Of a DNA stretch of 64,000 nucleotides, positions 44,654 to 51,281 are shown piece after piece. Both the position numbers and the translations under genes were made by a program. The number at the start of each line of letters is the position of its first letter. Position 1 is the first letter of the stretch. Below the pieces are notes generated by a model. That model did not search any database, was not told the origin of the DNA, and was given only the letters and a program-made list of their open reading frames with translations. Source of the DNA: Candidatus Altimarinota bacterium (GTDB taxonomy: Bacteria > Patescibacteriota > Gracilibacteria > BD1-5 > UBA2023); NCBI GenBank assembly GCA_028685185.1, contig JAQUEK010000004.1:1-64000 (forward strand). Direction: 5' to 3'.

Positions 44654-45244
44654 TTATAGATCCAATTTATTACAAGCATCTTTAATTTCATCAGCTGTAA
44701 TACCTAAATATTTCTGCGTTACAGCTAGGGAAGAATGATTTAACTTATGTTGTATAATTTCAAGAGGAATCGAGTTCATACGAGCCTGATATCACCAAGT
44801 TTTCCTAAGTGTATGATTTCAGAAGTTACCTTTAAGTCAAACATCTTTACATATCTTAGATAATAATAACCAGCTCATCTTTCTTCAAATTGATATTGAT
44901 CCTAATGGGAAGGTCTTTTTTTGAAAAAATATAAAATTATTACTATCTTTAACTATCTCAGGATATATTTCACTATATAGTTTCAATGTATCTTTAACTT
45001 TGGGAGTTATGGTTATCCTATTGGTTTTATTAGTCTTTTCTTCTTTTATATCAAAGAAGTCATTTATTTCTAAATTTTCATTGAATAAGTCTTTGGTCTT
45101 TATGTTTAATAGATCGGAGATTCTAAGAGCTGAGTTGATTCAAAGTTCAAACAGAAGCAAATCTCTTATATTTCATTCTCATCTCAGAATATTCTTGACC
45201 TGAGATATTTTTTTGACATCTCTAATTGGTTCTACAAATTGCAT
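44654..45244 (-). CDS. Small tyrosine recombinase / integrase (copy 2)
   Basis: 196 residues, ATG at 45244, TAA at 44654. Same family and length as the integrase at 13727: ALRISD, NHTLRKTW, HKLNHSS and TQKYLGITADEI, which give R, H-x-x-R, H and Y. It lies in the middle of the 6.6-kb element and is the obvious candidate for its integration into tRNA-Thr. Upstream are inverted AGTCTAATA-type motifs shared with copy 1. Confidence 0.92.
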
Positions 45245-48546: not shown

Positions 48547-48704
48547 CTTTGATAGATGAGTTTTTGGCTTCAATAAAAGCCTTAAAAATTGAGCCCGTGG
48601 GTACTTCCAGAATGGTGGTGTGTACCTGACGTCATTTTTAAGACTGTTTTTAGCTATATGGAGCCACAATCGGGAATCGGACCCGAGACCTCACCCTTAC
48701 CATG
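48547..48704. repeat. Right direct repeat (attachment site) of tRNA-Thr element
   Basis: Exact copy of 41964-42121; it contains the 3' half of the complete tRNA-Thr gene. Confidence 0.93.
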
Positions 48705-48734
48705 GGTGCGCTCTACCAGCTGAGCTATTGCGGC
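48659..48734 (-). tRNA. tRNA-Thr(GGT)
   Basis: 76 nt with encoded CCA. Acceptor GCCGCAA pairs with TTGTGGC; D arm GCTCAGCTGGTAGAGC; anticodon arm CACCC/GGGTG with loop ATGGTAA, anticodon GGT; T arm CTCGG GTTCGATTC-type CCGAT. It is the integration target of the element. Confidence 0.95.
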
Positions 48735-48827: not shown

Positions 48828-49343
48828 ATGAATATAAATGTCATTGAAATCGTCATACTTATAATACTTATTCCGTTCGCATTAGCATGAATGTCACTTG
48901 CTCCATGGGTTCCGACAAGGAAAAAGGATTACATAAGATGACTAAAGCTCGTGGAATTCAAGAAGTGAGATAATTTCTATGAGATATGAAGCTGAGACTG
49001 AAGAGTCACTTTCTATGCAGGAAAGAATCATGATATAAATGCGAGGTGAATAGAGATCTGCTATCCGATTTATCTTTATGCAAAAATCAAGAACATCATA
49101 CAGAAAAACAGAAACATATCTTTTGAAAATGCAGATCTGTTCAAATATGATTTTTCTGATGCAGATGTCATATATCTTTATTGAATGCCGGACAAAAATC
49201 CGAAGCTAATAGATAAGTTCAGAAAGGAATTGAAAAAATGAACCAAAATCATTTCCTATACTTTTGAAATAAAATGACTTGAACCTATAGAAATAAGCAA
49301 ACCTACAGAAAATGATCTTCCGATTTATCTCTATGAATTTTAA
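48828..49343 (+). CDS. Membrane-anchored class I SAM methyltransferase
   Basis: 171 residues, ATG at 48828, TAA at 49341 (an upstream ATG at 48821 is out of frame). N-terminal membrane segment VIEIVILIILIPFALAGMSL, then FKKGDNFYEIGSGDGRVTFY, the SAM-binding motif I (E-I-G-S-G-D-G-R), ARGIEICYPIYLYAKIK for motif II, and DADVIYLYGMPDKN for motif IV. The substrate is unknown; the family is often annotated as lysine- or RNA-type methylase. It is followed by a terminator. Confidence 0.85.
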
Positions 49344-49381
49344 AAGGAAAAAAGGTGAGCACGAAGCTCACCTTTTTTTGG
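49344..49381. terminator. Terminator between methyltransferase and pyrE
   Basis: Stem AAAAAAGGTGAGC / GCTCACCTTTTTTT with ACGAA loop. Confidence 0.9.
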
Positions 49382-49384
49382 ACA

Positions 49385-50080
49385 TTATGCCCTTGGAAAT
49401 ACACCGTAAGTGTCGTTATACTGACGAATCAATGGAATAGCCATCGCCCTGTCCATGTATTGGTTAGCTGTGGCATCCAATACGAAGAACAGATCTGTAA
49501 GCTCGGCGGCTGCGTACATCGGAACCTTATAATTAATATAGAATTCTTCCAGTGCCGATATCGCATTTTGGCCGCGCTCTTGCCTGTCAAAGGCAATGAA
49601 ACAAGCTACTACTTCGCCTCCTGAGTCTTTAATCCTCTGCATTGCGACTTCTTTTGTCTTTCCGTCAGTCGTGACATCATCGATCAGCGCAACCTTTTTT
49701 CCTTCCATGCTGCTGCCAACCATTATGCCACCTTCTCCATGAAGCTTTTCTTCTTTCCTGTCGTGCGCAAACGCATCAGGAAGACCAAGTCTCGAAAGAG
49801 ACATAGCCGTTGCAACAGCCAATGAAATCCCCTTGTAGGCAGGACCGAACACGACATCATAATCAATGCCTGTTTTTTTGATCGACTCTGCGAAAGAATC
49901 TCCGAGAAGTCCAATCGAGGTTCCAGTGCAGAATTTTCCGGAATTGAAAAAGTATGGCGACATCCTTCCGCTTTTCAGCTTACGAAAGATCTCCTCATTC
50001 AAGAACAGTTCCATTGCACCGATTTTAAGGGCATAATCCACAAGTGCTTCCGCAGCAGTTCCAGGTAACCATTTTTTCAT
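49385..50080 (-). CDS. pyrE: Orotate phosphoribosyltransferase, probably horizontally acquired
   Basis: 231 residues, ATG at 50080, TAA at 49385, with a strong AGGAGAAAGAC ribosome binding site. PRPP motif: KKVALIDDVTTDGKTKEVAM; others are SGRMSPYFFNSGKF, VVFGPAYKGISLAVATA and FDRQERG. It makes OMP in pyrimidine synthesis. None of its roughly 22 glycines is TGA: all are GGN. Its GC content is visibly above the neighbours'. Genes around it use TGA for a large share of glycines, so recent import from a standard-code donor is the simplest reading. The other pyr genes are not in the window. Confidence 0.96.
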   Translation of the reverse strand: MKKWLPGTAAEALVDYALKIGAMELFLNEEIFRKLKSGRMSPYFFNSGKFCTGTSIGLLGDSFAESIKKTGIDYDVVFGPAYKGISLAVATAMSLSRLGLPDAFAHDRKEEKLHGEGGIMVGSSMEGKKVALIDDVTTDGKTKEVAMQRIKDSGGEVVACFIAFDRQERGQNAISALEEFYINYKVPMYAAAELTDLFFVLDATANQYMDRAMAIPLIRQYNDTYGVFPRA

Positions 50081-50234
50081 GTCTTTCTCCTCTTATTCGT
50101 TGTATTTACTACAAATTCATGTAGTATCCAAGGTTAATGTTAATGAACATCATAACAGGAAACAAGAATGTCCCTATTGTTAACGTACTGGACAATTATA
50201 ATAAAAATGTTGAAATAACAAATTTAATTATTAT

Positions 50235-51281
50235 TTATATCAATTCTGAAAGCATATAATCAAGAATCCCAATTCAGTCCAAAGTCGGTCTAACGAGACC
50301 GGTCTCCTCTTCTAATAATCAGTCAGATATGAATTCTTCCACTTTAGCATTCAGAAGCTCTTTTCTTACTCAAATCGTCCTTAGATCAAACATTATTTTT
50401 TCTATTGCTAGACCGGTCTCGTTTAATTTTTCCTCATATTCTAATATTCATCCATAATAATCATTGAAATCGGAAGAATTCGCAAATCTTTTTCCATCTA
50501 CAAAACTCGCTGCAGATAATCAGAATCACCTATAATCAGAATGGTTCCAATACGATCTGTTATGCTGACATTCAAATCATGTTTTTGAGAAGTTGGATAT
50601 CTCATATCGCGCAAAATCATTTTTTTCAAGGATTTCTGAAATATCCTTATATTCATCTATATATTCATCCTTATTCAGTGATATAATTCACCAGTTCTTA
50701 GGATATATTCATTCCTCCAGCATGTAAACGCTTATATGTCTGACAAAACCATACTTATAAAGTATATTTGAAATATCTTTCATTTTGTCTCATTTTTTTT
50801 CATATGGAAGCCCTATTATAAAATCAAGCCCTACATTCTCTATTATTCAGAGATTTAAGATATCTAATCATTTCAGGACAGTTTGAATATCACATCGTCA
50901 GATTTCAGACAATGTCCTCTCATTTAAGGATTGGATTCAAACACTCAGTCTATTGATTCAAATTTCTTTTAATCCATTTATATAATCTATGCTTATGTCT
51001 TCAGGATTCATCTCAAGGGTCAGTTCTGCGTCAGCGCTTATTTTTCACTGATTTTTGAAAGCATTGATGATTGAATCTATCTGCTTTATACTAAGGATCG
51101 ATGGGGTTCATCATCAGAAATATATCGAATTAAAGCTTTTACCAGAAGAAAATCAGATAATCTCCTGTTTCAAATGATCAAGATATTTTTCTATATCCTC
51201 GCCTTTACCGGCAGGGATTGAAGCGAATTTGCAATATCTGCATTTTCTTGAGCAGAATGGAATATGTACGTATGCGAACAT
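50235..51281 (-). CDS. hemW: HemW-like radical SAM protein
   Basis: 348 residues, ATG at 51281, TAA at 50235. FAYVHIPFCSRKCRYCKFAS contains C-x3-C-x2-C for the 4Fe-4S cluster; FGGGTPSIL binds SAM; LTLEMNPEDIS, RLSVGIQSLNE and DFIIGLPYEK follow, as in HemN/HemW. HemW is a heme chaperone; true HemN has other residues before the first Cys. It overlaps nothing and ends with the adk start region upstream. In a CPR cell without heme synthesis its role is uncertain. Confidence 0.88.

Follow-up and report, generated by a model that had tools for sequence, protein, structure and literature searches.

Probable recent import of pyrE from a standard-code donor into a bacterium that reads TGA as glycine

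The orotate phosphoribosyltransferase (OPRT) gene, pyrE, of a Candidatus Altimarinota bacterium with genetic code 25, in which TGA encodes glycine, is in all likelihood a recent import by horizontal transfer from a donor that uses the standard code and Shine-Dalgarno (SD) sites. The gene lies in a 64,000-nucleotide stretch of contig JAQUEK010000004.1 (assembly GCA_028685185.1), hereafter the window. The original prediction of an import from a standard-code donor is borne out by the absence of TGA from all glycine positions of the gene, a foreign GC content, an SD site, and a phylogeny that conflicts with the PyrEs of the host's own family. The direct donor is unsampled, and we infer its genetic code from the marks carried by pyrE, which support the import well.

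A TGA-free gene in a TGA-rich genome

The pyrE gene (49385..50080, minus strand) encodes an intact protein of 231 aa, terminates with TAA, and matches TIGR00336 with a score of 137.8 bits, above the curated cut-off of 106.8. Its glycines had been put at roughly 22, all encoded by GGN; all are indeed GGN, but there are 21 (10 GGA, 5 GGC, 5 GGT and 1 GGG). The probability of finding no TGA among 21 glycine codons is 2.7e-13 under a binomial model at 0.748 and 1.5e-7 under a beta-binomial model fitted to native genes, which allows for gene-to-gene spread, so that chance is excluded under both codon models. By contrast, the flanking native genes, separated from pyrE by gaps of 40-155 bp, use TGA as often as had been claimed: the protein-lysine methyltransferase-like gene downstream (48828..49343, plus strand) employs it for 10 of 11 glycines and the gene for a HemW-like radical SAM protein upstream (50235..51281, minus strand) for 20 of 32. 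The higher GC content and the strong ribosome binding site ascribed to pyrE are both apparent. Its GC content is 0.46, compared with 0.323 +/- 0.036 for native genes (maximum, 0.397); the rise is confined to the gene and falls back at either end, and, with glycine codons removed, pyrE still ranks second highest among 574 genes. The SD site, AGGAG (50087..50091, minus strand), is located 6 nt before the ATG (50080-50078) and is foreign to this SD-less genome. Neither CGA nor CGG is present in pyrE, and garbling of the import through decoding of these codons was accordingly dropped from consideration.

Just downstream of pyrE, there is a hairpin, GGTGAGC-ACGAA-GCTCACC, flanked by runs of A and T (49348..49379), which is terminator-like on both strands; no second copy was detected among the loci examined, hence it is uninformative on the donor. 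A tRNA-Thr gene (48659-48734, minus strand) and a gene for a short Xer/integron-integrase-like recombinase (44654-45244, minus strand) are encoded within 5 kb. Despite their proximity, an integrating element carrying pyrE is unsupported, given that no repeats were found that bracket pyrE or tie the recombinase or the tRNA-Thr to it.

The genome-wide count of glycine codons suggested along with the original prediction, which we ran over the window plus another 35 stretches of the host genome (753 kb of 1171 kb, or 64%), revealed that TGA-free genes are rare. In this part of the genome, the share of TGA among glycine codons is 75%; of 541 genes containing 8 or more glycines, only 6 lack the codon, compared with 0.013 expected from the beta-binomial model fitted to native genes. 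The distribution of the TGA share is bimodal, with six genes at 0, the next lowest at 10%, and then 21% and up. The six are single genes scattered at separate places, and each has an SD site. Besides pyrE, they encode a CFI-box-like protein (L043:11237-12085), a protein without a family match (L047:3675-4421), a methyl-accepting chemotaxis protein, or chemoreceptor (L052:11854-13482, in G000:C5), a small protein or spurious ORF (L061:17764-18276), and a protein with MORN-like repeats that were recognized by eye, with no Pfam match (L070:7478-8077). The genes in L043, L047, L061 and L070, each single amid TGA-rich neighbours, are likely imports as well; the L061 ORF may not be a real gene. The L052 chemoreceptor shows a full-length match to phrog_8572 (1.6e-92), so that a phage-related route is possible in this case.

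Shine-Dalgarno sites as a second mark

In the host genome, only 4 of 532 native ATG genes have an SD match of 5 nt or longer at the called start, which is below the number obtained for a control stretch located farther upstream. When an in-frame ATG among the first 25 codons was accepted as an alternative to the called start, such a match was present in all 6 TGA-free genes and in 13 of the 535 others (Fisher p = 8e-10). The 3' end of the host 16S rRNA (L042:90-106) reads AUCUCCUU rather than ACCUCCUU, and pairing of this tail with AAGGAG is therefore still possible. In SR1 bacteria, SD sites are scarce and the CCUCC core has been lost (PMC10783764). SD sites are also sparse in the sampled standard-code Patescibacteria (6 of 55 genes), so that the ultimate donor of pyrE may lie outside Patescibacteria.

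The SD mark tells standard-code donors apart from low-TGA code-25 relatives, which bears directly on the alternative that pyrE came from another code-25 bacterium in which TGA is infrequent, with no change of genetic code. Such relatives exist in the host family (f1), where TGA makes up 2-13% of glycines in the sampled stretches of G001, G008, G010, G016, G017 and G018, and, at 5% TGA, its absence from 21 glycines would be unremarkable. However, of 128 sampled genes pooled from nine low-TGA code-25 relatives, just 4 have an SD site, whereas every one of the six TGA-free genes of the host, pyrE included, has one. Furthermore, most of these relatives have no PyrE match, and the PyrEs of two that do, G008 and G017, are not sisters of the window PyrE (AU p = 0.005). 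We thus consider a low-TGA donor improbable. More generally, the TGA share of glycine within the family spans about 2% to 75% and is often lower at higher GC.

Phylogeny, donor search and time of arrival

PyrE is patchily distributed in the host family and order: the window protein matches 8 of 59 genomes, its own included, and only 5 of 26 same-family relatives. In a 34-row tree, the PyrE of the window forms a group with those of G991, G603 and G743, which are Patescibacteria from a different class (support 96/86), and this group then joins G282 and G036 from the host order (96/88). When sampled stretches of G991, G603 and G743 are read with the standard code, most of the coding density is retained, which is not the case for TGA-rich code-25 genomes. 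The phylogeny of PyrE, also put forward as a check by the original prediction, thus places standard-code Patescibacteria as sisters, and the AU test rejects a position of the window PyrE with the own-family proteins of G008 and G017, as well as a single clade for the order's six PyrEs in the tree (p = 0.003; G009 and G014 not included). Because the branch leading to the window PyrE is long (1.4), its position inside the clade is poorly constrained, and the closest sequence, from G991, is only 49% identical; the conflict with the own-family PyrEs is, nevertheless, firm. Both refuting conditions named with the original prediction, many TGA-free native genes and a tree with PyrE among its host's kin, thus turned out in its favour.

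A search for the donor among mobile elements did not identify a close candidate in plasmids, phages or viral contigs. The viral contigs scanned yielded no relatives of the window PyrE, plasmid and phage records yielded only PyrEs below 60% identity (43% at best), there was no DNA-level match to pyrE in plasmids, and pyrE had no PHROG match.

Other members of the order carry comparable genes. G036 and G282 encode a pyrE-pyrF pair, with both genes TGA-free amid TGA-using genes; an 8-nt SD site precedes pyrE in each genome and a 7-nt site precedes pyrF of G282, and pyrF of G036 overlaps pyrE and has no clear SD site. The G013 PyrE clusters with Neisseria (98/97) in the first tree and with Neisseria and G1007 (88/86) in the second. 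PyrE thus made its way into the code-25 order on more than one occasion. Under the standard code, the Neisseria-like pyrE of G013 (L096:5893-6687) would stop at TGA, and readthrough to a later TAA would extend the C-terminus. A TGA stop is not an absolute block to transfer into code 25 because the G013 gene appears to be read through. The pyrE of G231 is TGA-free too; its product belongs to another PyrE type and the gene has no SD site, hence we did not include it among the imports.

Vertical inheritance of a native pyrE that chance or selection has kept TGA-free would be compatible with the presence of G036 and G282, from the same order, in the wider clade, and with the failure of the AU test to reject a grouping of the three (p = 0.117). 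However, the PyrEs of G036 and G282 are themselves encoded in TGA-free, SD-bearing cassettes, whereas the TGA-carrying PyrEs of G009 and G014 form a long branch of their own and are not preceded by SD sites. Considering also the patchiness of PyrE in the family, the foreign GC content and SD site, and the lack of TGA, which is improbable even when gene-to-gene spread is allowed for, native descent is very unlikely. An assembly or binning artefact that joined a standard-code fragment into the contig is the least credible explanation: a search for another assembly of this species yielded none, but pyrE lies 49 kb inside a 164-kb contig, immediately between native code-25 genes, the six such single genes are at separate places, and genome contamination is estimated at 1.4%.

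Thus, we propose that pyrE was imported from a donor that reads TGA as a stop and starts translation at SD sites, probably as a lone gene that brought its ribosome binding site with it. In the new host, the gene would be read correctly because it contains no TGA and ends with TAA, and the time since its arrival would have been too short for drift from GGN to TGA. On the assumption that glycine codons relax toward 75% TGA, the complete absence of TGA limits the residence of pyrE to no more than some 20% of this relaxation time at a 95% bound, a relative rather than an absolute date; in these relative terms, the predicted short time since arrival holds. Therefore, the long PyrE branch presumably accumulated mostly before arrival. 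The protein belongs to a PyrE subfamily sparsely scattered over Patescibacteria, and code-25 lineages have acquired PyrE repeatedly, usually together with pyrF. One-way gene flow into code 25, the predicted asymmetry, is plausible.

Enzyme function and imports into code-25 genomes

Residues 27-227 of the 231 in the window PyrE match the OPRTs of E. coli and Salmonella (1lh0, 1oro; phmmer E about 2e-40). The proteins share the catalytic loop, RKxxKxHGEGG (R108, K109, K112 and H114 in the window protein), the PRPP loop, DDVxTxG (D134 and D135), and DRQERG (165-170), all of which are intact and to which we assign the roles known from OPRT structures generally. The window PyrE differs in having a longer N-terminal loop and in its PRPP loop, which has TDGKT where the reference enzymes have TAGTA. 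With all these motifs intact, our best guess is that the protein is an active OPRT, predicted to convert orotate and PRPP to OMP and PPi.

The fate of OMP is less obvious. In the host genome (G000), estimated to be 100% complete, PyrF was matched by neither PF00215 nor TIGR01740 (E <= 1), with PF00215 matching 14 of 14 controls, and no model match was obtained for dihydroorotate dehydrogenase (DHODH) or uracil phosphoribosyltransferase (UPRT). The presence of PyrF in the same genome is a pathway feature rather than a criterion of the PyrE family. Because no PyrF, DHODH or UPRT was matched, we can only infer how the host uses OMP: PyrF might be supplied by a gene that the models miss, pyrE might be a recent passenger, or it might serve another salvage role. 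PyrF matches are also missing in G603 and G991, two of the nearest PyrE relatives, and G743 has pyrF adjoining pyrE. Among standard-code Patescibacteria, PyrE is present and PyrF was not detected in G303 and G1007. It is conceivable, albeit rather unlikely, that the PyrE sub-lineage of the host, G991 and G603 was repurposed away from UMP synthesis and spread singly between host-dependent bacteria; the new role may be, for example, salvage of another pyrimidine or regulation.

Horizontal gene transfer into code-25 bacteria is already known, and pyrE is a clear new case. In the code-25 bacterium Vampirococcus lugosii, 126 horizontally transferred genes have been reported, likewise representing entry of foreign genes into a UGA-glycine genome (PMC8080830); here, by contrast, a single gene bears two internal marks, the lack of TGA and the donor's SD site, and the same function entered the order repeatedly. 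For Gracilibacteria and Absconditabacteria, both code-25 phages and TGA-free phages compatible with the standard code are known, the genes of the latter being readable under either code, as is pyrE (PMC10746230). Unlike those phages, pyrE is a single chromosomal gene; among the remaining TGA-free genes, the L052 chemoreceptor has a PHROG match. In the part of the literature covered, we found no papers on pyrE imports in code-25 bacteria. What is new here is that models of PyrF, DHODH and UPRT have no match in the host, and that two of the nearest PyrE relatives likewise lack PyrF.

Whether a lineage becomes genetically isolated by recoding TGA is debated, isolation and protection both having been proposed (PMC8080830). 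Imports into this host stand out by two independent marks, the lack of TGA and the SD site, and there are hardly any intermediate cases. Extended to every code-25 genome, this count could list recent imports and date them relative to each other. Such counts could also measure how many genes are imported, which functions recur, and to what extent genes with TGA stops are filtered. A minor observation concerns a gene at L067:1789-2307, which has TGA at 2 of its 9 glycines and a 6-nt SD site and is possibly an older import moving toward host codon use.
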